24,689 nt of DNA, taken from a virus. Within the stretch, counting starts at the first letter, position 1, and every line of letters begins with the position of its first letter. Position numbers and translations under genes: made by a program. The stretch is taken from positions 1-24,689 of IMG/VR virus record IMGVR_UViG_3300036770_008647; one strand, 5' to 3'. Of this stretch, positions 1 through 24,689 are shown piece by piece. Below the pieces are notes generated by a model. It had not been told where the DNA came from. It was given only the letters and a program-made list of their open reading frames with translations, and made no database searches.

Positions 1-1852
1 CCATGATGACATCTTGCTGTATGTCAACGGAATGACCAAATTGATCGCCGGCATAGACATCATCTAATGTAAGGCTCTCAGCGTAGACCATCGATCCCGA
101 ATTGGTGATGCCAGTCTCTGAATCTGTCAGCATCTCGAACATGTAGACTGCGCCCGATCCCTCTACAGTATGCACGAACTTGGTGGTATCACTGTCAAAT
201 TCTGTGGCCTCGTCGTCAAATACCACTTCCTGTAACAGGTCAGCATTGGTACTACTGATCAACAGTGTATTTCCGTCTGCGGAAACTTTCACCAACGATC
301 CAAAAGCACCTTCGTTAGAATCGGGTTCTGTGATCCCTTGTGCTAGAATGTAAGTTTTGATTCCTAGGTCGACCAGGGTCGATCCAGTGGCATCATAGAT
401 TTCTATGCCTTGTCTACGACGAGAAGTGTCGGTGACAGTGATCTTGCTATCTGCCAGCGACGCGTGTACTCCGGGGATCGATAAAGATCCTATGTCAGAG
501 ACCAAAGTCTCAAGGGTAGCGGAGCCTGTACCTGCTTCGGTGAGTACCACTGATACTCGATTTACCATGATAGTGGACCCAGACTGTAGGGAGGTTGGAG
601 TCAGAGTAGAAGATATCTCTCCAAAATTCGTTCCTGTGTCCGAGAAACGATAGACCTTGCCTTGATAATAAGATGAATTATAATAGTTAGGTGCACCAAC
701 ATACAAGGACTTGGCACCAGAGTCAATGTCTAAGGTATGACCAAAACGATTGGTTTCTACAAAGTCCGGTGACGGCAGTATTTGATCCAGCAAGAACGAT
801 GATGATCCTATCTCTAGTTTTCTTCCTGACTCTACTGGAGTGGCAAGCACGACTTGTCCAGCATTGACAGTATAGTCTAGGCGCGGGTCTAATACTTGTC
901 CATCGATCTTCACAGATTTTATATCGCTGATGAACCCTGTGACATAAAGCACCTGAGATGTTTTGGTCGTTTGCTCTTCGACTACTCGACGATAGAATCG
1001 TACTTCGCCGGCATTGTTGTATGTGAATGCAGTGGCGTTTCCGTTTTCGTCTAGTTTGATATTTCCTTCAATGTCGCGAACAAAATCTTCTAGGTCACTG
1101 TCTGGGGCGCCAACAAACAATTTTGAGCCATCGTGATTGGTACGCACTGAATATCCAAACTCCGATCCGCTATCGTCGTGACTGATGGTCTCGGCCAGCA
1201 CATATCCAGGCGCCAATTTGATATCGATAGTATCAGTGATACGAGAATCGTCGATGATATCAACTTGGAATCCAGCTTCGTCGTCACCGACGATGTTGTA
1301 TTCAGTGCCTAGTACAAGAATCTGCTCACCCGATGATACCTGTATCAACGGCAGCAGTGACTCGCTGACATCAAAAGTAATTTCATATTGTCCGAGACCC
1401 GCAGAAGGCAAGCTGATGTTGTTTGATATTACATTTGTTTCTTTGCGGTAAGCAAATACTTTGGCTGCGCCAGGGGCTCCCACAAACAACCATTGCCCGT
1501 CACCACTGATATTCACAGAATAACCAAATAAATCATTGGATTGTGCGCCGGGATTCAAGATTATCTGTGGGCTGTAGGATTCGTTGTCTCCGCGGAAATT
1601 ATAGACATAGACTAAACCTTGTCCGTCCCAAGTGTCGGGTGCGCCTACTGCGGTGGTGTAGGATTTGAGATCAACGGATTTACCAAATCCCAATACATCG
1701 ACTAGCTGAGTAGGTTTGAATGTGGCACTTTGTTTGTACTCGCCGGATATGAGTTTAACGAATGTCTTTATGTTTCCAGCCTCGGCGCCGGGTGATGCCA
1801 CGACTACCAGATCTCTCTGGCTGTTGATTTTTAGTGCATGACCAAAACGGTC
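1..1852 (-). repeat. FG-GAP-type beta-propeller repeats inside the giant protein
   Basis: Seven protein repeats follow the pattern (D/N)-x-FG-x-(S/T)-(V/L)-x-(I/L), then DG-x-x-L-x-VGAP. They begin near nt 1852 (DRFGHALKI), 1690 (GFGKSVDL), 1537 (NDLFGYSVNISGDG), 1171 (GSEFGYSVRTNHDG), 751 (NRFGHTLDI), 310 (GAFGSLVKVSADG) and 46 (DQFGHSVDI). The first three are about 51-54 residues apart; later ones are 93-140 residues apart, so extra segments are inserted between blades. The pattern fits the FG-GAP/integrin-alpha family of beta-propeller blades. The acidic calcium loops of classical integrin blades are not evident. The series continues past the window edge. Confidence 0.75.
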
Positions 1853-4800
1853 ACTGCCGATAGATTCAGATGTCTGGGCCTGTATACGCTGCTGATACTC
1901 CCAGGGCTGTGTTTTTTCATACACGGCCCAACGATCTTCGCTGTCATACCGATCTACCCAAACTCGATCGCCGGGCAGCCATCCCAACGCTGGGGTCAAC
2001 GAAGAGATGTCGGTGGGTTTGCTGACTCGCATAGATTCTGTCTTTAAGAATACCCCGGGGCCAGCAAAGTTTCTTGTTTGCTTGATCTGTTCTGAATTTT
2101 TATAGATAGTGGTAGATACACGACGAGAATCCAGCACAGAGGTCACGCGGTAAAAACCGTCGATCACCGAGTCAAGATTCTTGATTATAAACACATCACC
2201 TTGGTTTAGTTCGTGAGCACGGTCAAAAGTCACCGATAGGCTGTCGTCGAGATCATATCTCACAGACTCTACAGCACTTTCAGTCTCGGTGACTCTATAA
2301 ACATCCCAGTCGCTGTCAAAGTCTTTGGCTACCCAAATCTTGAAGCCGCGGCCGGCCTTTGATAAAAATTGGTCTAGATTGACTTGCTCTTTGATATCAA
2401 AAACTGTGCCATCGATATCGGCGAGGTTCACAAAACCGGCCGTGAGTATATCGCCGCTGGTATCGGTGTTGTCGGTGCGATTGAAGAAAATGTCTTTGCG
2501 ATAATCGGCGGTTCTGCGATAAACCTCATTGACTTTGACTCCATTGGCATTCACAGATGCCGACTCATTGATATCAAGGAATTCTATCGTGCTGGGTTCA
2601 TTGGTGAATTTGGCTTCATCTAGCAGTACTTCGATTTGTGCATCGCTGCTGACAGCGCCGTATTCGCCCACTCGGATCGCCCACTCCTCATAGACATCGA
2701 TAGAACTAGACACATTGTTTAATTGTGCTGTGGTCAGTGCATCGATGGAATTTTTCGTTCCTTTGTCTTTGATGAATCCTTGATAGAATTTGATTTGGCT
2801 GGCGGTGTCAAGTCCAAAATCTGTGAGATACTCTCTTTCACGGAATCCGATCAAACCTGCGCTGTATTCTAGCAAATCAAAATCAGCGGCATTGTTGTCG
2901 ATGTCGTAGATGTTTTCAAACTTCTGTGCGTTGTAGGCAAAGTTTGGCAAGAGACCGGTCTTGATCGATGATTTATCGATCAGTGTCCAAACAGTCCGAT
3001 CAAATTCAGATGCGGCCACGATGTTTTCAAGGGCTGTGAAATACTGTTCTTTGAATTCAACGATCGTGCCTTTTTTGTAGTCCTTGCCAGGTACCCATGC
3101 ATCGACTTTGTCGCTGTTATAGATAAAGCCCGGAGGATTAAGTTCGCCGGCCCAGTCTGCGGTTTTACTGCCCACTAGTTTGAGGCGATATTGCCTATTT
3201 CCCAGCTCGGGTAGATAAACGATGTCATTGAAGACCGTGACATTGTCAAATATCAATGCGTGTTCGTATTGTACCACTTCCAACTCGGCCAAACAGATCA
3301 TCTGATCATTGAGGGCTGTTATCTTGAATTCGTTGTCTTGTCGTACCACTGTGAACTGATTGTTCTTGATAGTAGAAAACTGTTGATCAAGGAGTTTACT
3401 ACCGTTGATGGTATTGGTCACATGATCAATGACACCAGTGGGTGTTGACACTCGCAGAGAATCACCAATCGGGCTCAGTATTATTAGGTTGCCTGACTTC
3501 CAGCCTTGTTGGCTCCAATGCAAGAATTCCCTGGCACTGAGTATCCAATCTTTCTTGGTCTTTAGCTCGTCACTGCTGTCAACGAAACGACATCCCTGAC
3601 CAGTTAGATAACGCCCGTAGCTCACTAAGAAATCCACTACCTGTTGGCGGGTAGTAAACTCATGGCCATATGGAACTGTTATTTTTTTGCTTTGATAGTC
3701 GCGATAAATGACACCACGCTGCTGACCCACTGATATAGCATAAGCGTTGTTATTGGCCAGGCTGGGAATGATAGTGAAATAAGGTGTAGAAAGATCGTAG
3801 CCCGATACGATAAATCCGTTATCAGATTTTTCAACGATGACACCACTGTAGACCACCTTACGTACAGGACTAGATTTCGCGAGATGCACGAAATAGTTTT
3901 CTTCGGGCAGTACCACCGAGTCATTGGTCGACATGGGCGAACTCTGTTCGGCCAATACTTTGATATAATTTTTGTCAGTGTAACCAGCGACCTGATATCC
4001 CAAGCGGACCGAGATGTTGTTGATCTTTTCTCTGATTACCGTGGATGGATCGCGACCGAGGTTTCGCACAAAGTCTCTGATCCAATTGAGATAGCCTGCG
4101 ACTCTGTTGATAGAACCACCGGAGTCGACAGTACCTTGGATCACTATGCTTTCCGGAGTGATCCTTCTCAGCGTGTCTTTGTTGATGATCTGATCCAGCT
4201 TGTCGCTGCGATTGTAGCGCATGACATTGACAAGACTACCAAAGTAAAAAGCTGGCTTCATCAACGCGATGGCTTTTTGCAAAGCATACGGATAATCGCT
4301 GCTGCGTCTCCAAGCTACTTCGGCTGGACCAAATGCGCCAACAGAGAAACTGCGGCTGGCATCTTGGCTGTTGAAGTTTTTGATCAGGAAATCATAGGGC
4401 GAACGCAATGCTCCGTATTGATCTACGGGCACTATATCTAACAGTTGCGGTCTCGAGAATCTTGTATCATAACCGGCTCTTGCGCCGGCATGTATGTAAC
4501 CTTTGCTGAGATCTTCCCACAACAATCGGTTACCACCGGTGTAAGGTGCTTCGCCGTAGCGGTCTTGCCACCAGGCGGGTTCTTCGCTAAATCCCAACAT
4601 CTCCCAAGGATGGGTATTGGGACGATCTGTATCAAAGAAATATTTGTAAATCGCTCTCCATGTGCCCGGTAACAAAGATCCATCGATACGATCTCGGTAA
4701 CCTTGATAGTTCCAAGTCCACGAATCGTTGGACAAGAATGTGGAGTTTGAAGAGAAGTCAACTTGGTTGGTGCCTGCCCACCGCAAGAAACTCTTGCCGA

Positions 4801-7800
4801 CAACACGAGTAAATTCTGTGAGGCTGTACCCGGTATCACGGAATTTTCCAGGAATATAATCGTGGATGTTGACGATGTTTTCTTTGTAGTCGACCTTGAT
4901 ATTGTTATAGATCCGTAGCTCGAGTTCCAACAATAGCTGATCTCGATAATCACCAAAGCACGGAGTTATCGAACCGTCGTGTCCTTGTATCACATCAATG
5001 GGAGTGCGATAAGTATCGTCTCTGAAAATCGAAGGTTTGAATTTGGGATAGAGACCAATTTTGCTGGGAGTCTCTGGAACATAAGAACCGTCTGTGTCAA
5101 AATAATCCACGACCTTGACCACATCGTCGGCGTTGAGGTCGTAGGAATCATTGATGATAACGGCGGTGCGATCCTGTGGAAAATAGTAATCGGTGTCTTT
5201 GACCAATTGGCGATCATTGACATAGACCAGAACTGCACGATTGCCAAGTTCGTTGTCATTGAAAACCGTGGGCAAATCAAACTGGCGCAATTCGGGGTTG
5301 ATCACGGTGTCGATGTACTCTCGACGGTTGTCACCGTACGGTACCATGTCTGAATAATACCATGGGAATTGGTTGGTCTTGACGAGATTGATAGTTCTTA
5401 GAATGGAATCTACAGCATCAGGTATGAGTGCTGAGTCTTCGACTACATTCTTTGCAGCCAGTTCAAGGAATTTGTTTTTAAACTTGAGATATTCTTTGGC
5501 AGCCAAGTCGACGCTGTCAATGAAATTGACTTCTTTGTCTTGCAAGAACAAGCTGCCATAGACAGTGGGGCTGGAATGTTGAAGTATCGTGCCGCCATGA
5601 TTTTTGTAGGTGATATCTCGGTAACCAGTGTAGGCACCTGTAGACGACACATAGTCGTTGGTGTTTTCCGACAGCCGGAACATGTGATTCTTGATCTGTC
5701 CCAATGTGAGATATTCAAAGTCTTTGTTCAGTGCATTGAAGTCAAGATTCAGTGGAACTTCATAGTAGCCCAGTTCGCTTTTCTGCTTGGAGTAGATCAA
5801 TATATCCACTGCTGCGCGATCCACCAGCAGCGAGGATGCGATACGGATGCACTTCCTTGCACCGATGCTGTCATAGACATACTGAGATTTTTTGAGCAGC
5901 ACATTGTTGACATAGACTTTGGTGTGAGGGATTTCGCTGTTTTCTACTTCGGGCTCAATGTCTATTTCAAAATAGTTGGTGGTACCGTCAAACACATGTG
6001 ATATGACCTGATATTGACGGCTCTTTTGTTGTGCCTTGACCCAGATATTTTTGGTCTGCGTGGTTTCAAGATCGCTGTAGGAAAGCAGGTATCCGAGATT
6101 TATTTTCTTGGCTACTTCTTTGGTATCGTCGAGATACGAAAACGACGAGTTGTCGAAGGCATTGCTGAACTCGATGTCACCGACATTGCTGAAATTCCTG
6201 TACTTGAGAGGGAATCCCAACACAGGATCATTGTTTCCTGTACCAACACGATAAGAAAATATCGGAGTTCCAACAAAAGTGGTGTTGCTGTATCTATCAG
6301 TGTTGCCAAAACTGTAGCCATCGCTGTCAACTACTTCAAACATGGGTGACTGATTGATCGCGGTCTTTGCCACTGCTTCGTGCCACACAGAACCATCATA
6401 CCAGTAGTTCTTGCCAAGATTCAGCCCAGACCCAATCACTACAGTATTATTTGCTTGTATAGTCACACCCAGCAATGGTGTTAGATGAACGACTTCTTGA
6501 CCATCGATGGTTTCCATGTTCATCTGGTAGACGGAGTTCCTTACTTCGGGATCCTCGTCATTGGAGAATATCACGGTTTTTCCATCGACGATGGAAAGTA
6601 TTTCTTCCCAGTACTGACTGGTGGCCGAAGGTGGCTGCGCGATATCCATGATGGCTCGATACAGCACATTTTCATGAAGAGCGAATTCACCATCGGCGAT
6701 TGAATTGGCTGTTTCAGCATCATAATCAACATAGACATCAACCGTTGACCACAGCACTGCTGCGGCCTCAGGAGTCAGTCCTGCAGAACCACCCGGTGAA
6801 ACACAGATATAATATCGGTCTTGATATCTGACTAATGCGCCTTGCTCGTAGGCTTCTGCGATGTCAAAATCTACGAACGCCAACTTGTCATAGGCCACTG
6901 CTGTCCAATAACCCGTGTCAGTGGGCACATGCTCGGCAGTGACTATCTTGGCACGATAGATACCATCTTGATATTTTACTAAGTTATTGGCAAAATATAC
7001 ACGATCAGCATTGTAGTCCTCGGCGGCTCCGACCAGTTCCCAGTTATCGGCATCGGTGGGCGCCTGCTGTAGGTTAATCAACGCACGATATATTTTGCTA
7101 CCTACCACAACTACATCGTTTTTGTTGTAGCCGGTCAGTGAATCATAAGGATTGCCAGCACCCTCGACTTGGCTGAAAGCATCTGTGACATAGGTGTCAA
7201 AGAAATCCACCGGGGCGATGCCCACCCGACCAAAGTTGAACATCTGTAAATCAGATTCAAATTCAATGATGGGACGGTTGGCACGATAAGTGTTGTCGGG
7301 TAACTCAACCGTGTTGTTATACTTGGCTGTGGCTTTTAAAACATCAATGTGGAACCAACGATTGCTGCGACTCCAAGCGTTGAGATCAAGGCTGCCGCGA
7401 TTTATAGTGATGTAATCGAGATTTTCTAACTGTTCGTCAAAGTATCCGGGGTTGACAAGATGCTCAACATCGACCAGTATTATGGATTCTCCTACACCCT
7501 CAACGAAATACTCTTTCTGTCTGTAGCGAGCAGGAGTCACTTGGCTGTCAAAGCGTATCTTCAGCCCATTGGTGAATACTACTCCATTGGGGCTGGTATA
7601 ATTTTTTCTTGTCAGTATATCATTTTCAACATCAATGAAAACATTGTTAGAGTCTACTATGCGTATCTCTCCAACAAAATTGGCACTGGTGCCGTCTTGA
7701 TAATAGAGTCGATCGGCACTGGCAGTGATGTTGGGAATCTGATGATAGAGACCATCATAATCAATGAAAAACTCTTTGGTGGCATTGTTCTGGCCGCGAC

Positions 7801-8899
7801 GCACGAAAATCCGTTGATTAGACAGGACTTCTGTGCTGGGCATCAATTTGATCACATGGTCTGTGCCGCTGGGTATCATCTGTATGCGCCATAGATTGCG
7901 TCGCATGCTTTCTGCCACGGTTTCTGCCACCACTACATCGTAGGGATAGACATCATAGATTTCGTTGTCGGTCCAGAATTCGTCGTCAATGTCATTGTTG
8001 ATGAATACGATATAACGACCGTCAAGGTCTGTGGCAGTGGTATACCCATCAATGCCTTGTGGATGAGATTTAGCAAATTCTTTGAGACTGTGATTTTGTA
8101 TGTCGGAGTAACTGATATCAGTGGCCAAGTCTACCGAAGCCACTAACTCCATTGAAGTGTATCTTTCCTGTGCAGTGATCAGCGGCACACGGAAAGTGAC
8201 CACTCCGGAACCAGCACCGTTGTTTATGACTCCCAGGACATCACGAGTAGATACGCTGGGCTGTGTGGCTTTAGTACCGGTGACGCCGGGCTCGCTCTGG
8301 ATCCAAAATCCATCGCTGCCTTGGGCGGTTTCGAATTGATATGTGCCGCCACGAGCCAGGGTCAATATGGGGTTGGCTTCATTGCCTTTGCCGGAAAAGT
8401 TGTAGCCGCCGTCGATGACGTTGCGAACCACTTGGTAGGTCCCTTCGCTGTCAACATTGCCAGCATAGACATCCACAGCATCGGGCCCATTGGGTACCCA
8501 ATAATAATTGTTGAAGTTGATGAACTTGTCAAAGTCAAAGCGACCATCAAAGGTGTAGTATTCGTTGGAGAATAGGCGATCGTGGTCATTGACATGTCCG
8601 CCGTAATAGGAAATCTTTTGGAGTAGATCGCGATACGACGAAAAGAAATTTATTTCATTGGTGTAAGGGTCCTCGACCACCACGCATGGCTCGAGTTGAT
8701 AGTTTTGTCTATCACTGGTATTTTCGAGTATGTAGTTGTCGCTGGCCTTGAATGTGGGGGCAAGCCGTCGGCCGATATAGCCATTGACTCTTTTAAAACT
8801 GGGTTCGCTGATCAGCTGTTCGGCGGTGGCCGACAAGAATTTCTTGTTGGGATCAGTCCTGAAAATATCAGGTAAAAAATTTAGAGTCTTAGATGCCAT
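1..8899 (-). CDS. Giant virion structural protein, gp7-position baseplate wedge candidate (3' end cut by window)
   Basis: One minus-strand frame starts at ATG 8899 and stays open to base 1, so at least 2966 residues are encoded and the C-terminus is missing. It begins MASKTLNFLPDIFRTDPNKK, 24 nt after the gp6 stop, with a GGCGAGG stretch just before the start. Visible parts are: an N-terminal region with no recognised fold; four tandem Y/W-rich carbohydrate-binding-like repeats at about residues 590-765; beta-type segments of the pattern VYVN-x-L-DY (near nt 5920, 5230 and 850); a W/Y-rich middle including a single further CBM-like unit near residue 1933; and FG-GAP-like repeats from about residue 2350 to the edge. 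T4 gene 7 (1032 aa, wedge initiator) follows gene 6, so position suggests a gp7 counterpart with very large additions; I see no clear sequence match to T4 gp7. A tail-fibre-like or adhesin role for the C-terminal part is inference. Virion structural protein is fairly secure; the exact baseplate role is not. Confidence 0.7.
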   Translation of the reverse strand, partial: MASKTLNFLPDIFRTDPNKKFLSATAEQLISEPSFKRVNGYIGRRLAPTFKASDNYILENTSDRQNYQLEPCVVVEDPYTNEINFFSSYRDLLQKISYYGGHVNDHDRLFSNEYYTFDGRFDFDKFINFNNYYWVPNGPDAVDVYAGNVDSEGTYQVVRNVIDGGYNFSGKGNEANPILTLARGGTYQFETAQGSDGFWIQSEPGVTGTKATQPSVSTRDVLGVINNGAGSGVVTFRVPLITAQERYTSMELVASVDLATDISYSDIQNHSLKEFAKSHPQGIDGYTTATDLDGRYIVFINNDIDDEFWTDNEIYDVYPYDVVVAETVAESMRRNLWRIQMIPSGTDHVIKLMPSTEVLSNQRIFVRRGQNNATKEFFIDYDGLYHQIPNITASADRLYYQDGTSANFVGEIRIVDSNNVFIDVENDILTRKNYTSPNGVVFTNGLKIRFDSQVTPARYRQKEYFVEGVGESIILVDVEHLVNPGYFDEQLENLDYITINRGSLDLNAWSRSNRWFHIDVLKATAKYNNTVELPDNTYRANRPIIEFESDLQMFNFGRVGIAPVDFFDTYVTDAFSQVEGAGNPYDSLTGYNKNDVVVVGSKIYRALINLQQAPTDADNWELVGAAEDYNADRVYFANNLVKYQDGIYRAKIVTAEHVPTDTGYWTAVAYDKLAFVDFDIAEAYEQGALVRYQDRYYICVSPGGSAGLTPEAAAVLWSTVDVYVDYDAETANSIADGEFALHENVLYRAIMDIAQPPSATSQYWEEILSIVDGKTVIFSNDEDPEVRNSVYQMNMETIDGQEVVHLTPLLGVTIQANNTVVIGSGLNLGKNYWYDGSVWHEAVAKTAINQSPMFEVVDSDGYSFGNTDRYSNTTFVGTPIFSYRVGTGNNDPVLGFPLKYRNFSNVGDIEFSNAFDNSSFSYLDDTKEVAKKINLGYLLSYSDLETTQTKNIWVKAQQKSRQYQVISHVFDGTTNYFEIDIEPEVENSEIPHTKVYVNNVLLKKSQYVYDSIGARKCIRIASSLLVDRAAVDILIYSKQKSELGYYEVPLNLDFNALNKDFEYLTLGQIKNHMFRLSENTNDYVSSTGAYTGYRDITYKNHGGTILQHSSPTVYGSLFLQDKEVNFIDSVDLAAKEYLKFKNKFLELAAKNVVEDSALIPDAVDSILRTINLVKTNQFPWYYSDMVPYGDNRREYIDTVINPELRQFDLPTVFNDNELGNRAVLVYVNDRQLVKDTDYYFPQDRTAVIINDSYDLNADDVVKVVDYFDTDGSYVPETPSKIGLYPKFKPSIFRDDTYRTPIDVIQGHDGSITPCFGDYRDQLLLELELRIYNNIKVDYKENIVNIHDYIPGKFRDTGYSLTEFTRVVGKSFLRWAGTNQVDFSSNSTFLSNDSWTWNYQGYRDRIDGSLLPGTWRAIYKYFFDTDRPNTHPWEMLGFSEEPAWWQDRYGEAPYTGGNRLLWEDLSKGYIHAGARAGYDTRFSRPQLLDIVPVDQYGALRSPYDFLIKNFNSQDASRSFSVGAFGPAEVAWRRSSDYPYALQKAIALMKPAFYFGSLVNVMRYNRSDKLDQIINKDTLRRITPESIVIQGTVDSGGSINRVAGYLNWIRDFVRNLGRDPSTVIREKINNISVRLGYQVAGYTDKNYIKVLAEQSSPMSTNDSVVLPEENYFVHLAKSSPVRKVVYSGVIVEKSDNGFIVSGYDLSTPYFTIIPSLANNNAYAISVGQQRGVIYRDYQSKKITVPYGHEFTTRQQVVDFLVSYGRYLTGQGCRFVDSSDELKTKKDWILSAREFLHWSQQGWKSGNLIILSPIGDSLRVSTPTGVIDHVTNTINGSKLLDQQFSTIKNNQFTVVRQDNEFKITALNDQMICLAELEVVQYEHALIFDNVTVFNDIVYLPELGNRQYRLKLVGSKTADWAGELNPPGFIYNSDKVDAWVPGKDYKKGTIVEFKEQYFTALENIVAASEFDRTVWTLIDKSSIKTGLLPNFAYNAQKFENIYDIDNNAADFDLLEYSAGLIGFREREYLTDFGLDTASQIKFYQGFIKDKGTKNSIDALTTAQLNNVSSSIDVYEEWAIRVGEYGAVSSDAQIEVLLDEAKFTNEPSTIEFLDINESASVNANGVKVNEVYRRTADYRKDIFFNRTDNTDTSGDILTAGFVNLADIDGTVFDIKEQVNLDQFLSKAGRGFKIWVAKDFDSDWDVYRVTETESAVESVRYDLDDSLSVTFDRAHELNQGDVFIIKNLDSVIDGFYRVTSVLDSRRVSTTIYKNSEQIKQTRNFAGPGVFLKTESMRVSKPTDISSLTPALGWLPGDRVWVDRYDSEDRWAVYEKTQPWEYQQRIQAQTSESIGSDRFGHALKINSQRDLVVVASPGAEAGNIKTFVKLISGEYKQSATFKPTQLVDVLGFGKSVDLKSYTTAVGAPDTWDGQGLVYVYNFRGDNESYSPQIILNPGAQSNDLFGYSVNISGDGQWLFVGAPGAAKVFAYRKETNVISNNISLPSAGLGQYEITFDVSESLLPLIQVSSGEQILVLGTEYNIVGDDEAGFQVDIIDDSRITDTIDIKLAPGYVLAETISHDDSGSEFGYSVRTNHDGSKLFVGAPDSDLEDFVRDIEGNIKLDENGNATAFTYNNAGEVRFYRRVVEEQTTKTSQVLYVTGFISDIKSVKIDGQVLDPRLDYTVNAGQVVLATPVESGRKLEIGSSSFLLDQILPSPDFVETNRFGHTLDIDSGAKSLYVGAPNYYNSSYYQGKVYRFSDTGTNFGEISSTLTPTSLQSGSTIMVNRVSVVLTEAGTGSATLETLVSDIGSLSIPGVHASLADSKITVTDTSRRRQGIEIYDATGSTLVDLGIKTYILAQGITEPDSNEGAFGSLVKVSADGNTLLISSTNADLLQEVVFDDEATEFDSDTTKFVHTVEGSGAVYMFEMLTDSETGITNSGSMVYAESLTLDDVYAGDQFGHSVDIQQDVIM
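6608..7129 (-). repeat. Four tandem CBM5/12-like (chitin-binding type 3-like) repeats in the giant protein
   Basis: Four consecutive units of about 33-45 residues share a Y/A-x-x-G/N-x-x-V start, a central (I/R/L)Y(R/I)A or YYIC strand, a proline, and a closing tryptophan. Copies span roughly nt 7129-7040 (GYNKNDVVVVGSKIYRA, ending NWEL), 7015-6905 (KYQDGIYRAKIV, ending GYWTAV), 6850-6749 (YEQGALVRYQDRYYICV, ending VLWSTV) and 6705-6608 (ALHENVLYRAIMD, ending QYWEEI). This is the layout of small carbohydrate-binding modules found in phage tail proteins and chitinases. The family name rests on motif resemblance only. Confidence 0.55.
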
Positions 8900-18164: not shown

Positions 18165-18464
18165 TTACAACCCCAAGTCAGTGATCAGTGTTTCTTTCTT
18201 GGGAATATAGATAGACACACCGGGTCGGAAATCAAACACAGGATCTTTGATCACATTGGGATTACGGACCGCGAACACCCACCAAAGACCAGCATCACCA
18301 TAGAGGTCATAGGCCAGCAAATCTGGGCGGTATTGATAGATACGATCGATCTGATAGTAGACATCCGAAGGCAGTTTGCGGAATGATCTATTGTTCATGA
18401 CATCCAAGAAACTGCCATAGTTCTTGGTATCATAGTAGGGACTGCTTTTGCTATAAGTGGCCAT
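18165..18464 (-). CDS. 53: Baseplate wedge subunit gp53
   Basis: A 99-residue protein of the gp53 family: a short N-terminus (SSPYYDTKNYG), a helix region (LPSDVYYQIDRIYQYRPDLL), the conserved AYDLYGDAGLWWVFAVRNPN around residues 54-70, and a closing LysM-like strand (DPVFDFRPGVSIYIPKKETL). T4 gp53 is 196 aa; this short form keeps the core only. In T4, gp53 clips onto gp6/gp25 and holds neighbouring wedges together. Its start overlaps the stop of the upstream tube-cap gene by one base (TAATG), and GGAGG lies 9 nt before the ATG. The next gene starts 3 nt after its stop, so these are surely co-transcribed. Confidence 0.9.
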   Translation of the reverse strand: MATYSKSSPYYDTKNYGSFLDVMNNRSFRKLPSDVYYQIDRIYQYRPDLLAYDLYGDAGLWWVFAVRNPNVIKDPVFDFRPGVSIYIPKKETLITDLGL

Positions 18465-19351
18465 TATAGGAATCCTCCGCGGCCATTGAGTAGATTGCCA
18501 CGAGCGAACTCATCGAGGTCAAACCCGCGAGCTTTGTTGCGGCTGACCACTGGTTGTAGAGTCACTGATATGGTGCTGGAAGTGGGGATACGAGTGGACT
18601 CCTGACCGATGTAGGTTTCGATATAATCGGAGTCACCGGGCATGGTGTGAGAGAAGTTGGTTATCACGCAAGTCACATGAGGAAAGTAATGATCGCCATA
18701 GCCATCGAGATATACCAATGGCGGCGGATTGCCGGCCAGTTCCCCTTGGCCAAACCACATCTTGGTGCAGGCCCGGAAAAAATAGATAGAAGCCAACACA
18801 TACTTGGCTTCAAGGTCATTTTGTGCTGTAAATTCGCCACTGATAGTTATGGCCTGCACTTCTGATCCTTCGTAGAAATACGCGTCATAATTACTGTGTG
18901 TGAGTTTCTGATTGCCGTAGCGTGCTGTGTGTTGTACCTGGATCTGGGGAGAATAAGGAAATATCACACCACTCTGACCAGTACCATTGAACAGGGGAGC
19001 CATCACTCCTTTGTTGGAAGAATTATAGAAATAACTGGCCCGATTGGCCAAGCTGATGCGCACCCGCCAGTCAGTGTCACCGGCGGAACTCGATCGATTG
19101 AACCCAACCACTGTGGTACCACGAGAAGCAGCACCTCCGGTCAGTAGACCTGAAATAGATCGACGAACATTACTGGGGTCAAACATGTTAAGAGCAGAAT
19201 CTATCACACCAGGCAAGCGTCCACCGGATACAGGAGCATTGCCCATGGCTTCGGCGCTGCCATCGACCTCGTATGGATCTTCGGCGCCGTATGTGGGCAC
19301 ATTCACAGATCCCTTTTTAAAGAATCCGCCGACAGTGTCTAATATTCCCAT
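18464..19351 (-). CDS. Baseplate tail tube cap / initiator, gp48 or gp54 type
   Basis: A 295-residue protein, similar in size to T4 gp54 (320 aa) and gp48 (364 aa). A glycine/serine-rich N-terminus (MGILDTVGGFFKKG) precedes a compact core from about residue 90: DWRVRISLANRASYFYNSSN, VIFPYSPQIQVQHTARYGNQ, and GSEVQAITISGEFTAQNDLE, then YVLASIYFFRACTKMWFGQG and a final strand set (FPHVTCVITNFSHTMPGDSD, STISVTLQPV). This is the tube-like fold seen in tail-terminator/tube-initiator proteins that cap the hub and start tail-tube polymerisation. Which of the two T4 paralogues it matches cannot be settled by eye. It is the first gene of the minus-strand block, with GAGGAAA 9 nt before its ATG and a late promoter box 28 nt upstream. 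Confidence 0.8.
   Translation of the reverse strand: MGILDTVGGFFKKGSVNVPTYGAEDPYEVDGSAEAMGNAPVSGGRLPGVIDSALNMFDPSNVRRSISGLLTGGAASRGTTVVGFNRSSSAGDTDWRVRISLANRASYFYNSSNKGVMAPLFNGTGQSGVIFPYSPQIQVQHTARYGNQKLTHSNYDAYFYEGSEVQAITISGEFTAQNDLEAKYVLASIYFFRACTKMWFGQGELAGNPPPLVYLDGYGDHYFPHVTCVITNFSHTMPGDSDYIETYIGQESTRIPTSSTISVTLQPVVSRNKARGFDLDEFARGNLLNGRGGFL
18474..18478 (-). promoter_or_regulatory. Ribosome binding site of gp53
   Basis: Perfect GGAGG on the minus strand, 9 nt before the gp53 ATG and inside the last codons of the tube-cap gene. It is the strongest ribosome site in the minus-strand block and fixes the start at 18464. Confidence 0.7.
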
Positions 19352-19360
19352 TTGATAGAA

Positions 19361-19367
19361 TTTCCTC
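19361..19367 (-). promoter_or_regulatory. Ribosome binding site of the gp48/54-type gene
   Basis: Minus-strand GAGGAAA, 9 nt before the ATG at 19351; supports that start codon. Confidence 0.6.
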
Positions 19368-19379
19368 TTGCTTTTTGAA

Positions 19380-19387
19380 TATTTATC
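19380..19387 (-). promoter_or_regulatory. Late promoter box GATAAATA driving the baseplate block
   Basis: Reads GATAAATA on the minus strand, seven of eight matches to the T4 late promoter consensus TATAAATA. It is non-coding, 28 nt before the tube-cap ATG, with the GAGGAAA ribosome site between them. This is the best promoter candidate in the window. Confidence 0.65.
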
Positions 19388-19421
19388 GGTTATTATAAAC
19401 TGGTCTTATTATAGGAATCCC

Positions 19422-20309
19422 ATGAAACACAACTATCTCAACAACAAGGACATACTCAAAGAGATACACAAGAGCAAAAACACCTATTGCACTTATCTCT
19501 CTGTGGCCGACGCCGACTACGACATGATCTTGCCCGATATCAAAAAGATCAACAAGAAAAACATACTCGAAGCTCGTAGGAATCGCGCCGAAAGGCTGGC
19601 TAAACTGGCACACGAGGCGGCATCTGCCGATGGCACCAAACACAAATTGGCCGATTTCGAAGTCAAACTCAAGGATGTCTCAGACACAGATGTGGTATTC
19701 CGCGTGATGACCTGGGATCATGTTCCCATGGATACTTCCAAAAAGAAACCTAAAAACGCCAAGACCAACCTTTTGTTCGACGACGAAGACATCCATAACG
19801 AGTACGATGCCGATCTTGACGAATCGCCCACCAAATATGTCAAGTGCAACTTTCCACCGTTCCAACATTTCCGAGTCACCGAAGACGGAGAACCTTACTG
19901 CGTGGGCAAGAGTCACTGGAAAGGCGATTTGGAAAAAGGCGGGTTTTCGCGAGACCACGGGTCCATGACCAACAAACTAGCTCACATGTTCCTGAAACTC
20001 TGCGAGCGTTATGCCATGCGTTCAAACTGGAGAGGATACACTTACAATGACGAAATGCGAAGCCAAGCACTACTACAACTGTCGCAGATCGGACTCCAAT
20101 TCGACGAATCAAAGTCACAGAATCCTTTTGCCTACTACACAGCAGCCATCACTAACTCGTTTACTCGAGTGCTCAATATTGAAAAACGCAATCAAAACCT
20201 ACGCGACGACATCTTAGAAATGAACGGACTCACCCCCAGCTACACACGACAGGCCCAGGGAACCACTTGGGGCGGTAACGGCGGTGGTGGATCACCGGTA
20301 GAGGAATAA
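19422..20309 (+). CDS. 55: Late transcription sigma factor gp55 (enlarged)
   Basis: A 295-residue protein. The N-terminus (HNYLNNKDIL, residues 3-12) matches T4 gp55 (YNYVNNKELL). From about residue 180 comes the sigma region-2-like part: KLAHMFLKLCERYAMRSNWR, GYTYNDEMRSQALLQ, FDESKSQNPFAYYTAAITNS, FTRVLNIEKRNQN. Gp55 replaces the host sigma factor and recognises TATAAATA late promoters. The protein is about 110 residues longer than T4 gp55 (185 aa), mainly through lysine- and acid-rich sequence at about 14-180. The C-terminus ends in a Gly-rich tail without the hydrophobic clamp-binding motif of T4 (SLDFLYE). The ATG at 19422 is preferred over an in-frame TTG at 19368 because AGGAA lies 4 nt before it and homology begins there. 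gp47 follows after 6 nt. Confidence 0.88.
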   Translation: MKHNYLNNKDILKEIHKSKNTYCTYLSVADADYDMILPDIKKINKKNILEARRNRAERLAKLAHEAASADGTKHKLADFEVKLKDVSDTDVVFRVMTWDHVPMDTSKKKPKNAKTNLLFDDEDIHNEYDADLDESPTKYVKCNFPPFQHFRVTEDGEPYCVGKSHWKGDLEKGGFSRDHGSMTNKLAHMFLKLCERYAMRSNWRGYTYNDEMRSQALLQLSQIGLQFDESKSQNPFAYYTAAITNSFTRVLNIEKRNQNLRDDILEMNGLTPSYTRQAQGTTWGGNGGGGSPVEE

Positions 20310-20315
20310 TCAATC

Positions 20316-21332
20316 ATGGCGAATCTGTTCCGCAAGGCTGCGGTGTTCACTGACATCCACTTTGGGCTTAAATCCAACAGCCAATTACACAACGACGATT
20401 GTCTAGCATTCGTGAAATGGGCCACTGCCAAAGCCCGAGAAGAAGGCTGCGAAACGGCCATGTTCCTGGGCGATTGGCACAACAACCGTGCCAGCATCAA
20501 CATCGTGACACTGACTTACAGTCTGCGGGCACTAGAGCACCTCAATGAGAACTTTGACAATGTGTTCTTCATCCCCGGCAATCACGATCTGTATTACAGA
20601 GACCGCCGTGATGTGCAGAGCGTAGAATGGGCGCGACACTTGCCCAACGTGCATATCTGCAACGATTGGTTCTCCGAAGGCGATGTGGTCATCGCACCTT
20701 GGCTGGTGGGAGAAGATCACAAGAAGGTACCCAAGCTCAAAGGCAAATACATGTTTGGGCACTTTGAGTTACCTGGCTACTTCATGAACGCCATGGTACA
20801 GATGCCCGACCACGGGGAGATCAACGCCAACGCCTTCCACGGATTCGATCATGTGTTTACTGGACATTTCCATAAAAGACAAAGCAACAACAACATCACT
20901 TACATCGGTAACTGCTTCCCGCACAACTATGCCGATGCCGGCGACGACGAACGCGGCATGATGATCCTAGAATGGGGCAAGGAACCCGTGTTCCATGCTT
21001 GGCCTGACCAGCCCCGTTATCGTGTCTATCAACTTTCCAACATACTCAAAAACACCGACGCACTGTTGTTCAACGGGTTACATGCCCGGGTCAACATCGA
21101 TGTGGACATCTCCTACGAAGAAGCTTCGTTCCTCAAAGAAACATTCATGGGACAATATGGCTTGCGTGAGTTCACACTGATCCCGGCCAAGAACACCGAT
21201 GTCACTGACGGAGGTTCCTCTGCACAGATCGCGTTCGAAAGCGTGGACCAGATCGTTGCTGATCAGATCACCAACATTGAAAGCGAGCAATATGATCGTG
21301 GAATGTTGCTGAACATCTATCAGAATCTATGA
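20316..21332 (+). CDS. 47: Recombination endonuclease subunit gp47 (Mre11-type nuclease)
   Basis: A 338-residue protein, almost exactly the T4 gp47 length (339 aa). The calcineurin-like metallophosphoesterase motifs appear in order: FTDIHFG (DxH), FLGDWHNN (GD), FIPGNHDLYY (GNHD), YMFGHFE, and FTGHFHKRQ (GHxH). It is the nuclease partner of gp46, processing DNA ends for recombination-dependent replication and degrading host DNA. The ATG at 20316 follows gp55 by 6 nt, with GAGGA 10 nt upstream inside the end of gp55. Its stop overlaps the start of the radical SAM gene (ATGA). Identity is secure. Confidence 0.95.
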   Translation: MANLFRKAAVFTDIHFGLKSNSQLHNDDCLAFVKWATAKAREEGCETAMFLGDWHNNRASINIVTLTYSLRALEHLNENFDNVFFIPGNHDLYYRDRRDVQSVEWARHLPNVHICNDWFSEGDVVIAPWLVGEDHKKVPKLKGKYMFGHFELPGYFMNAMVQMPDHGEINANAFHGFDHVFTGHFHKRQSNNNITYIGNCFPHNYADAGDDERGMMILEWGKEPVFHAWPDQPRYRVYQLSNILKNTDALLFNGLHARVNIDVDISYEEASFLKETFMGQYGLREFTLIPAKNTDVTDGGSSAQIAFESVDQIVADQITNIESEQYDRGMLLNIYQNL

Positions 21333-22927
21333 CTCTATTAGAAAGACTCAACGACGAGTATTCGGCTGTGGTATGCCAAGACATCGGCGACTTTTTTGCC
21401 ATGTCTTGGGGGGATTTCTATTCCACTCTACAGGCACTCAAGCACGACGAGTACCAAGATCGTGAAAGATTGATATTCTATCTACGAGATCGAGTCGGCG
21501 AAGATTTGTTGTCACGGTTCTTCCGAGATTTTTTCCAACAACTGGCAGTGCTCGACATCCCGAGTTTCTTTGTGATTTTAGTATTGCCCAGTGAACGAGA
21601 AGCGGCCATCGCTTCACGAGTGCATGAAAGCACAGGCACCGACGATCTTCCTACCTTAGTCATCGACTCGGAATCCGACGGAGACCATTTACAACCCACT
21701 GAGATCACGACCAGCCGAGCTGCATTCGGCATGCCAGCCACGGCGTGCCCGTTGCCCTGGAATTCTTTGGATATCAGCCCAGTGGGCGGATTCGCTCCGT
21801 GTTGCTTTTATCAGGAGGAAGTGACTGACGAACAAGGTCGACCATATGACCCTAAAACACACAGTCTTGGCGAAGTCTATAACAGCAAGTACATGCAGAA
21901 ACTGCGTCAGCTATTCCGGGACGGAGTGAGGCTACAGGCCTGTAGCCGTTGCTGGAAAGAGGAAGAAAGCGGGACTCTCAGCAAAAGGCAGCTCTATGCC
22001 ATGCGTTGGGGGCACGATAGCCGGGCCATCAATTGGGAGGAGGACGACGAACGCAATCTCAAGATGCTGTCAGTGTCATTTGGCAACACCTGCAACCTCA
22101 AGTGCCGCATCTGTTCCGATAAAAGCAGCAGCAAGATCGCCGGGGAGATGTTGTCCAACATGCCCGAGCACGAAAAGAAAACCAGCCGAGCGTGGCAGTC
22201 ATTGGAGAGAGGTAAATGGATCAGCGAGTCGACACATTTCTGGGACGACCCCACTCTTGATCAGATCAAATATTTTGATTTTGCAGGCGGCGAACCTTTG
22301 CTAGACAAGAATCACCTCATTGCATTGAAAAGATTCGTGGACCAAGGTACTGCCAAGGACATCACCATACACTACAACACCAATGGTACCATCATCAATG
22401 ATGGATTGCTTGAGACTTGGAGCCATTTTAAAAAGATAGACCTCGCTGTCAGCGTCGACGACATCGGACAAAGATTTAACTATCAGCGACACGGTGGTTC
22501 GCAGTTTGGTTGGGATCTGGTATCCAAAAACATCGATTACATAAAACACAACAAAACATCGAACATCGTGCTGAACATACATTGTGCCGTCAGCATACTC
22601 AATGTGTTTTACTTGCCTGATCTCTGCGACTGGATCGAAACAGTGGGGTTCGAAGACCTGCACTTCAGCGTTTTATACAATCCGCTGCATCTCAGCCTTT
22701 TAAGCATGCCCATGGCGGCTGCACAAGAAGGAGTGGAAAGATTATCGGCACACCGATTCAGCGATCGTGTGCAGCCATTCATTGACACCGTGATCGGTAT
22801 ACTGAGCAGCCGTAAAAAGAAAGAAAATCCCGAGTTCGTCGAGCATATGATCCGTTTAGATTCCATACGCAAAGAAAATATATCTACGGCACAGCCCGAG
22901 CTTGCAAAACACTTTGGTTTCAAGTAA
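21329..22927 (+). CDS. Radical SAM protein with N-terminal SPASM/twitch-like cysteine region
   Basis: A 532-residue protein. Residues 1 to about 105 form an unrecognised helical domain. At about 138-215 lies a SPASM/twitch-like region: CPLPWNSLDISPVGGFAPCC (Cys140, 158, 159), a LGEVYNSKYMQKLRQLFRDG segment, and ACSRCW (Cys205, Cys208), enough to ligate an auxiliary Fe-S cluster. The radical SAM core follows from about 245: GNTCNLKCRIC gives the CxxxCxxC cluster motif (Cys255, 259, 262) and FDFAGGEPLL the GGE motif that contacts SAM. SPASM usually follows the core; here it precedes it. The substrate is unknown; SPASM enzymes often modify peptides or proteins. The start overlaps gp47 by 4 nt, implying translational coupling, and gp46 follows after 11 nt. 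Radical SAM identity is firm; any role in recombination is conjecture. Confidence 0.88.
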   Translation: MTLLERLNDEYSAVVCQDIGDFFAMSWGDFYSTLQALKHDEYQDRERLIFYLRDRVGEDLLSRFFRDFFQQLAVLDIPSFFVILVLPSEREAAIASRVHESTGTDDLPTLVIDSESDGDHLQPTEITTSRAAFGMPATACPLPWNSLDISPVGGFAPCCFYQEEVTDEQGRPYDPKTHSLGEVYNSKYMQKLRQLFRDGVRLQACSRCWKEEESGTLSKRQLYAMRWGHDSRAINWEEDDERNLKMLSVSFGNTCNLKCRICSDKSSSKIAGEMLSNMPEHEKKTSRAWQSLERGKWISESTHFWDDPTLDQIKYFDFAGGEPLLDKNHLIALKRFVDQGTAKDITIHYNTNGTIINDGLLETWSHFKKIDLAVSVDDIGQRFNYQRHGGSQFGWDLVSKNIDYIKHNKTSNIVLNIHCAVSILNVFYLPDLCDWIETVGFEDLHFSVLYNPLHLSLLSMPMAAAQEGVERLSAHRFSDRVQPFIDTVIGILSSRKKKENPEFVEHMIRLDSIRKENISTAQPELAKHFGFK

Positions 22928-22938
22928 AATCAAGAGAT

Positions 22939-24689
22939 ATGTTTAAAATCAAAACCCTTACAGTCAAAAACTTCATGAGCGTGGGCAATGCCACGCAGGC
23001 GGTGAACTTCGATCGACGAGACCTCACCTTGGTATTGGGTGAGAACTTGGATCTCGGTGGTGACGATTCTGGTGCCAGAAACGGCACAGGCAAAACCACC
23101 ATCATCAACGCCCTCAGTTATGCGCTCTACGGCAATGCGCTGACCAACATCAAAAAAGACAACCTCATCAACAAGACCAATGGCAAGAACATGTTGGTCA
23201 CCATCGAATTCGAGAAAGATGGCATAGACTATCGCATCGAACGCGGACGCAAGCCCAATGTCATGAAGTTCTGGGTGGCCGGTGACGAGCAAGAAGTCAC
23301 CGACGATGCACAAGGCGACAGCAGAGAAACACAAGCCGACATCGAACGCATGTTGGGCATGGAACACGAGATGTTCAAGCATGTGGTGGCACTCAACACT
23401 TACACAGAACCATTCCTGGCGCTGCGGGCCAACGATCAACGGACCATCATTGAGCAACTCTTGGGCATCACGCTATTATCGGAAAAGGCGGATCGTCTCA
23501 AAGAGCAGATCAAAGCCACCAAAGATGCCATCACGCAAGAAGAAGCTCGGATCAAAGCCGTCCAAGACGCCAACCGGCGCATCGAAGAACAGATCGAAAG
23601 CCTGCGCAAGCGCCAGCGACTGTGGATGGCCAAGCAAGACGAAGACTGCGCTAAGATGCGGACAGGCATCGCTGAACTGGAAAAGATCGACATCGAAGCC
23701 GAGATCCAAGCACACAGAGATCTGGTATCGTTCAACGAAGAACAAAAGACACGATCTGACTTGGCCAAAGCACAACGACAGAGCGAAGCCGAACTGGATC
23801 GCTTGATCAAACTAGCATCTAAACTAGAAAAAGAGATCGTGTCTCTCAAAGAACACAAGTGCTATGCTTGTGGACAAGACATACACGATGCCAAGCAAGA
23901 CGAGATACTAAGTGATAAGCAAGCATCGTTAACCGAAGCACGAGATCAAGCCAAGACCATCAGCGACGAGGTAGAAGCCATCCGGTCTGCTTTGCTAGAT
24001 TTAGGCGACCTGCGACATCCTCCTGTGGTGTTCTATGACACACTGGAAGATGCTCTCAACCATCGCAATACGCTGGAAACACTCAAGACCAATCTAGCTG
24101 CTCGCGAGGCCGAACACGATCCCTACAGCGAGCAGATCCGTGAGATGGAAGAGGCCGCTGTGGAAGAAGTCAATTACGACACCATCAACGAGATCGCGCG
24201 AGTGCGAGATCACCAAGACTTCTTGTTGAAACTATTGACCAGCAAAGACTCGTTTGTGCGAAAGCGCATCATCGACCAGAATCTCGCTTACTTGAACCAG
24301 CGACTCAGTTACTATCTAGATCGCATCGGGCTTCCGCACACAGTGAAGTTCCAGAACGATCTCACAGTGGAGATCACCGAGCTAGGCAGAGACCTAGACT
24401 TCGACAACCTGTCGCGCGGTGAGCGCAATCGCTTGATCCTTTCACTGTCGTGGGCGTTCCGCGATGTATGGGAAGGCTTGTATCAGCCCATCAACTTGTT
24501 GTTCATCGACGAGCTAGTAGATTCGGGCATGGACAGTTCGGGTGTGGAAAATGCCTTGGCTATCTTGAAGAAGATGAGCCGTGATGTGAATCGCAGCGTG
24601 TGGTTGGTATCGCACAAAGATGAACTGGCGGGTCGAGTCAACAACATCATGCATGTGGTCAAGGAAAACGGATTCACTACCTACAACAC
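22939..24689 (+). CDS. 46: Recombination endonuclease subunit gp46 (Rad50/SbcC-type ATPase; 3' end cut by window)
   Basis: At least 583 residues are encoded; the stop lies beyond the window (T4 gp46 is 560 aa). Walker A is GARNGTGKTT (residues 45-54, Lys52). Two coiled-coil arms rich in E/K/Q flank the zinc hook CYACGQ (Cys308 and Cys311). Toward the end come the ABC signature LSRGERNRL, Walker B LLFIDE, the D-loop DSGMD and the H-loop VSH. This is the ATPase that pairs with gp47. The ATG at 22939 is 11 nt after the radical SAM gene, with only a weak AAGAGA stretch close to it, so expression probably depends on the operon message. The C-terminal end is nearly complete since all catalytic motifs are present. 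Confidence 0.95.
   Translation, partial: MFKIKTLTVKNFMSVGNATQAVNFDRRDLTLVLGENLDLGGDDSGARNGTGKTTIINALSYALYGNALTNIKKDNLINKTNGKNMLVTIEFEKDGIDYRIERGRKPNVMKFWVAGDEQEVTDDAQGDSRETQADIERMLGMEHEMFKHVVALNTYTEPFLALRANDQRTIIEQLLGITLLSEKADRLKEQIKATKDAITQEEARIKAVQDANRRIEEQIESLRKRQRLWMAKQDEDCAKMRTGIAELEKIDIEAEIQAHRDLVSFNEEQKTRSDLAKAQRQSEAELDRLIKLASKLEKEIVSLKEHKCYACGQDIHDAKQDEILSDKQASLTEARDQAKTISDEVEAIRSALLDLGDLRHPPVVFYDTLEDALNHRNTLETLKTNLAAREAEHDPYSEQIREMEEAAVEEVNYDTINEIARVRDHQDFLLKLLTSKDSFVRKRIIDQNLAYLNQRLSYYLDRIGLPHTVKFQNDLTVEITELGRDLDFDNLSRGERNRLILSLSWAFRDVWEGLYQPINLLFIDELVDSGMDSSGVENALAILKKMSRDVNRSVWLVSHKDELAGRVNNIMHVVKENGFTTYN

Follow-up and report, generated by a model that had tools for sequence, protein, structure and literature searches.

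An N-twitch radical-SAM protein with an unassigned N-terminal domain at the variable gp47-gp46 junction of large T4-like phages

The window, by which we mean the whole stretch of 24,689 nucleotides that was analyzed, carries a gene for a 532-residue radical-SAM protein (rSAM) between gp47 and gp46, with a gp55-like gene upstream (Table 1). The identities of gp55, gp47, and gp46 are PHROGs assignments. An earlier sequence-only reading had described the open reading frame, its ATGA overlap with gp47, and the 11 nt that separate it from gp46, and these coordinates were confirmed. The gene order gp55-gp47-rSAM-gp46 was likewise found in a second phage, whose rSAM is 65% identical. There is no room for a precursor-peptide gene at the rSAM gene, as the gaps amount to −4 and +11 nt only; for these gaps, the earlier statement that no such gene lies nearby was borne out. 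Motif matches for a promoter or terminator belonging to the rSAM gene itself were no commoner than about chance. A recent foreign acquisition of the gene was rejected because nucleotide composition shows no step across it. Elsewhere in the window, an open frame of at least 2966 aa (positions 2-8899, minus strand) runs off the end of the DNA and matches the virion structural family phrog_10938.

Table 1. Features of the rSAM locus, with positions in the window
Feature	Position	Strand	Basis
gp55-like late sigma factor, upstream of gp47	19368..20309	+	phrog_12791, 5.6e-79
gp47 (SbcD/Mre11-like), left flank of slot	20316..21332	+	phrog_100, 3.8e-62; 98% aa identity to L001
ATGA stop-start overlap, gp47 TGA/rSAM ATG	21329..21332	+	Sequence; generic at junction among relatives
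N-twitch radical-SAM protein, 532 aa	21329..22927	+	NF033640, 324.9 bits (cut-off 170); AlphaFold2 mean pLDDT 90.5; top PDB matches in Foldseek are rSAM maturases and viperins
N-terminal accessory domain, residues 1-112, predicted alpha/beta; common to GT-B-like proteins of related phages	21329..21664	+	HMM search; hhalign 99.4%; helix/strand order in two AlphaFold2 models
Linker, residues 113-137	21665..21739	+	AlphaFold2 low confidence, pLDDT <50 at 119-132
Twitch (half-SPASM) domain, residues 138-215, C140/C159/C205/C208	21740..21973	+	PF13186, 140-209; cysteine conservation
Radical-SAM core, residues 245-480	22061..22768	+	PF04055, 249-416; conserved GGE(P) motif at 320-323
CxxxCxxC motif, C255/C259/C262	22091..22114	+	Invariant in 78/78 relatives
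11-nt spacer, rSAM stop to gp46 start	22928..22938	+	rSAM stop ends 22927, gp46 starts 22939
gp46 (SbcC/Rad50-like), right flank of slot	22939..24687	+	phrog_77, 9.1e-106; 97% aa identity to L001; continues past window end

Membership of the protein in the rSAM family is secure. Residues 138-528 matched the NCBIfam model NF033640 (N_Twi_rSAM, "twitch domain-containing radical SAM protein") above its curated cut-off, and Pfam placed the SPASM model ahead of the Radical_SAM model. The auxiliary cysteines lie N-terminal to the CxxxCxxC motif, as in the other members of NF033640. The sequence-only reading had regarded this order as the reverse of the usual one; the order itself is correct, but a named subfamily already has it, and a "reversed SPASM" as an anomaly was rejected because an auxiliary domain before the core defines NF033640. 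The window protein resembles that model over the whole twitch and core length and differs in an added N-terminal domain of ~110 aa outside the model and in its position at the gp47-gp46 junction. Under the subfamily name, no literature was found on NF033640 in phages.

Structure prediction had been suggested as a check on the first reading. The AlphaFold2 model showed an alpha/beta N-terminal domain, followed by the linker, the twitch domain, and the core. The PDB matches in Foldseek were the maturases CteB, anSME, SkfB, and SuiB plus viperins, which scored similarly, and a viral library returned phage rSAM proteins, including those of KVP40 and phi-pp2. By sequence, phmmer detected no real relative in the PDB. 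The viperin family model NF038283 gave 37.3 bits, far below its cut-off of 180, so that the likeness to viperins consists of weak core similarity and fold matches and does not extend to membership. Viperins are not known to have a twitch domain. With CteB, anSME, SuiB, and SkfB the window protein shares the core fold and an auxiliary Fe-S domain; however, this domain is C-terminal in those enzymes (PMC9012708), whereas in the window protein it is N-terminal, with a four-cysteine set and no adjacent precursor.

In an alignment of 78 relatives, C140, C205, C208, C255, C259, and C262 were invariant, and C159 and C158 were kept in 72 and 57 sequences, respectively. C419 and C433 were not conserved; outside the core motif, conservation was confined to positions 140, 158/159, 205, and 208. 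The protein thus lacks the conserved cysteines for two auxiliary clusters that characterize a full SPASM domain. Judged from the alignment, C140, C159, C205, and C208 are the most likely auxiliary ligands. Because four near-invariant cysteines suffice for one cluster, a single auxiliary cluster would be expected, which points to a twitch domain and not to a full SPASM domain. Twitch and SPASM domains have been described as C-terminal extensions, and a twitch domain binds one cluster (PMC9012708). Of the SPASM region that had been proposed ahead of the core, the auxiliary-cluster domain is therefore retained, but with only four conserved cysteines it is a twitch domain.

The fold bears on the nature of the substrate. 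Because Foldseek places the modeled core near both peptide maturases and nucleotide-acting viperins, the substrate may also be a peptide or a nucleotide. The enzyme might modify a peptide or protein in a RiPP-like or sulfatase-maturase-like manner, with a phage or host target encoded elsewhere. This is suggested by the top PDB matches and by weak similarity to the peptide-maturase models of NCBIfam, and the many paralogs per phage described below could suit many target proteins. On the other hand, viperins score similarly in Foldseek, the gaps on either side of the gene are too small for a precursor, and the gp47-gp46 slot showed no precursor family. We consider peptide or protein modification a possible, less favored alternative.

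The gp47-gp46 junction was surveyed in the window, in the related locus L001, and in the best (most similar) 80 of at least 594 gp47 loci in IMG/VR; gp46 could be placed in 81 of these. The junction was occupied in 43 of the 81 loci and empty in 38, percentages being rough, as near-duplicates are included in the sample. The inserts measured roughly 0.2-2.9 kb, their genes formed ~30 sequence clusters, and 69 of 70 inserted ORFs lay on the gp47-gp46 strand. The cargo comprised rSAM proteins, DUF6071 proteins, methyltransferases, sulfotransferases, a nucleotide-sugar epimerase, a UDP-glucose dehydrogenase, AMP-binding enzymes/AMP ligases, and a 2OG-Fe(II) oxygenase. Near-identical flanks enclosed different contents: L053 and L059, with 91% identity in gp47 and likewise in gp46, contain 1803 and 11 bp between them. 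The contents differ also between L018 and L022 and between L033 and L038, at a flank identity of 81-89%. That the junction is an exchangeable cargo slot is well supported by these sequence comparisons. Variable genes between conserved core genes make up the hyperplastic or cargo regions of T4-like phages. The slot resembles these in principle and differs from them in being a single junction inside the gp47-gp46 pair with tailoring enzymes as occupants; no description of it was found in the literature searched. Of genes linked to mobility, the 55 cargo ORFs yielded one HNH match and the region downstream of gp46 in L001 a SegE-like GIY-YIG gene; the slot of the window has none. In Paride, RaK2, and Vibrio 2.275.O, gp55, gp47, and gp46 follow one another in this order and no rSAM gene intervenes; in Atu_ph07, a small ORF separates gp47 from gp46.

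The tight coupling of the rSAM gene to its neighbors had been taken as a sign of co-expression and common function with the Mre11/Rad50-like complex. The survey did not support this interpretation. The −4 stop-start overlap was used by the first cargo gene in 27 of 43 occupied slots and by gp46 itself in 21 of 38 empty ones; since it occurs with or without cargo, it is a property of the junction and not of the rSAM. A dedicated partner of gp46/gp47 would show conserved co-presence, whereas many of the slots were empty and most others held different cargo. A functional unit of the rSAM with Mre11/Rad50 was therefore rejected as the default explanation.

Comparison of the window with L001 gave protein identities of 98% for gp47, 97% for gp46, and 64% for the rSAM. 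Synonymous divergence was 0.38 for gp47 and 0.48 for gp46 and saturated for the rSAM, and at either end of the rSAM gene identity fell from ~0.92 to 0.6. Positions 18165-24687 of the window form a mosaic relative to L001, in which gp55 and the upstream structural genes on the baseplate side have synonymous values from 1.1 to saturated. Because these genes are also deeply diverged, two histories would fit the sequences: either the gp47 and gp46 flanks were recently shared around an old rSAM gene, or the rSAM gene was replaced. Downstream of gp46, L001 carries two further rSAM genes, the SegE-like endonuclease, a metallophosphoesterase, and a glycosyltransferase (L001:11384-17040).

Residues 1-137 of the rSAM matched no model in Pfam or NCBIfam. 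The N-terminal domain had earlier been called unrecognized at a length of 105 residues, and with ~110 aa it remains so; this domain, absent from both collections, is what looks new about the protein. An HMM built from the N-domains of the window and L001 alone reached GT-like ORFs of related phages (L037, 9e-4; L086, 3e-3), and the same relationship was recovered when rSAM-linked and GT-linked N-domain profiles were aligned with hhalign, at a probability of 99.4%. In two AlphaFold2 models, one of each kind, the helices and strands of the domain follow one another in an identical sequence. A GT-B fold, with SdgB as the best match, was obtained for the GT-like proteins, which consist of a single ORF of 364-396 aa or of two adjacent ORFs of ~180 aa each. 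The one-ORF form occupies the slot at L093:10739-11929 and L209:1956-3125, and the split form, which many phages have and in which the ORFs overlap or adjoin, at L086:9014-10103, L037:9084-10198, L085:9014-10100, and L039:9021-10087; gene fission, fusion, or a recoding site may account for the two forms. No phage isolate in our INPHARED copy matched the GT-linked N-domain proteins. One slot rSAM (L084:4526-6046) has another N-terminal domain, likewise without assignment.

IMG/VR was scanned with the GT-linked N-domain, with no gp47 in the query. Gp47 and gp46 bracketed 49 of the 52 loci detected. As most of these loci belong to a single family whose place is fixed, the count reflects positional stability and should not be read as 49 separate insertions. 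Fifty contigs, picked for holding gp47, were also searched over their whole records; 11 of them had the N-domain, each in a single copy. Nine of these copies lay in the slot, one immediately upstream of gp47, and one in an rSAM array. This preference for the site could reflect a real link with gp46/gp47. It is also, together with the translational coupling, an argument for an rSAM that works with the gp46/gp47 complex, for example by modifying the complex or DNA ends in repair or recombination, with the N-domain docking the enzyme there. Such a role is improbable, considering that the slot of close relatives is empty or holds unrelated enzymes, that the coupling is generic, that gp47 and gp46 are 97-98% conserved compared with 64% for the rSAM, and that one clade of N-domain rSAMs resides in arrays with no gp46/47 marker nearby.

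In the tree of twitch and core sequences, the N-domain rSAMs of the slot appeared at two places, near the window and L001 and together with L044, L070, L110-L113, and L115. The N-domain rSAMs of the arrays formed a third group. Topology tests rejected a single clade of the slot N-domain rSAMs (p=0.00071) as well as a single clade of all N-domain rSAMs (p=1e-11). The tree of the N-domain itself splits by partner, separating rSAM-linked from GT-linked sequences with 99/100 support. Because of these rejections and this split, independent joining to several rSAM lineages is indicated: on the trees, the N-domain is joined to at least two rSAM lineages, probably three, and separately to GT-B-like proteins. 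A resident N-domain with freely swapped catalytic parts is weakened by the same split. The N-domain might have no specific role and only stabilize the protein or supply homology for module exchange at the slot, which would agree with its fronting different catalytic parts at one locus and with the two lineages of slot rSAMs. We consider this unlikely, as the split by partner is not what a resident domain with freely swapped rSAM and GT parts would give.

N-twitch rSAM genes are present in many copies in these phages. The 207-kb phage of L001 contains 11 matches, six of them in tandem, and other large records contain 12-16, with recurrent arrays; two further large records have few or none, G040 three and G050 none. 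Nol-like carbamoyltransferase, DUF6071, and unnamed families flank the arrays, and clusters c0, c2, and c3 among the conserved neighbors are without a known domain. A conserved array of this kind, in which four to seven N-twitch rSAM genes stand in tandem and are surrounded by carbamoyltransferase, DUF6071, and conserved families without a name, lies at G001 105720-113216, and similar ones occur at L118, L120, L123, L128, L130, L142, L148, L157, and L158. Two matches with an in-frame TAG (G001:64563-65165 and G018:318146-319294) are perhaps decaying copies or cases of recoding. Vibrio phage K566 (L007, 159838-170788) carries rSAM genes among unnamed genes, which places them in isolated, culturable Vibrio phages. 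The isolated relative KVP40 encodes an N-twitch-like rSAM, Q6WHP4. With respect to the order gp47-rSAM-gp46, which the sequence-only reading had proposed to survey, N-domain proteins do favor this position, but most other N-twitch rSAM genes sit elsewhere.

Expansions of rSAM genes in large phages have precedents. Phage TARA_ERS488813_N000010 has 12 rSAM genes (PMC5332604), and Aeromonas phage 332-Vera has 8, which its report calls highly unusual (PMC12390700). Both resemble the phages studied here in the multi-copy expansion; neither the gp47-gp46 slot nor the N-terminal domain is described in the available portions of the two reports (PMC5332604, PMC12390700).

Cellular relatives were sought in genome contigs. 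A first scan with the window rSAM and its relative as queries yielded no loci, and a second with array relatives yielded 22 loci in bacterial and archaeal assemblies. None of the 16 of these loci that were scanned for the N-domain contained it. A UDP-sugar dehydrogenase and another rSAM are encoded close to one cellular relative. Clusters of three to five N-twitch-like rSAM genes, without the N-terminal domain, occur on marine gammaproteobacterial and Bdellovibrionota contigs (L246, L250, and L253).

With a probability of roughly 0.55, the best explanation is that the rSAM is exchangeable tailoring cargo of the N-twitch subfamily, serving the modification of glycans or other surface components. 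A tailoring pathway is suggested because this phage group has 11-16 such enzymes in addition to glycosyltransferases, a carbamoyltransferase, sulfo- and methyltransferases, and nucleotide-sugar enzymes; its assignment to glycans draws on the minority of array neighbors that are annotated. A [4Fe-4S] cluster on C255, C259, and C262 would cleave SAM to give a 5'-deoxyadenosyl radical, and the auxiliary cluster of the twitch domain would help in substrate binding or electron uptake. The enzyme would most likely oxidize or cross-link a sugar, lipid, or protein acceptor in a phage-encoded pathway acting, for example, on virion or host-surface glycans. As cargo between gp47 and gp46 it would be kept in translational register by the stop-start overlap, which is open to any occupant, and the occupants are probably exchanged by recombination within the conserved genes on either side. 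The N-domain, which GT-B-like proteins of the slot also have, probably directs the catalytic part to an acceptor or partner that both kinds of protein share. Among substrates, we infer a glycan or other surface acceptor as first choice and a protein or peptide as second, with a role in DNA repair the least likely. A broader and still tentative proposal is that the N-domain is a new recruitment module of large uncultivated T4-like phages, which fronts radical-SAM and GT-B chemistries and guides them to a single acceptor common to both or to the gp46/gp47 machinery, the gp47-gp46 junction being its preferred exchange site.

That a gene is tightly coupled to gp46/gp47 does not by itself imply that it acts in DNA repair. 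The presence of 11-16 genes of one uncharacterized rSAM subfamily in large aquatic phages implies a chemistry that is important to infection and was not identified in the literature searched. The N-domain, which lies outside Pfam and NCBIfam, occurs with two enzyme classes, and is concentrated at one genome junction, offers a concrete handle on this chemistry, as its binding partner would point to the substrate.
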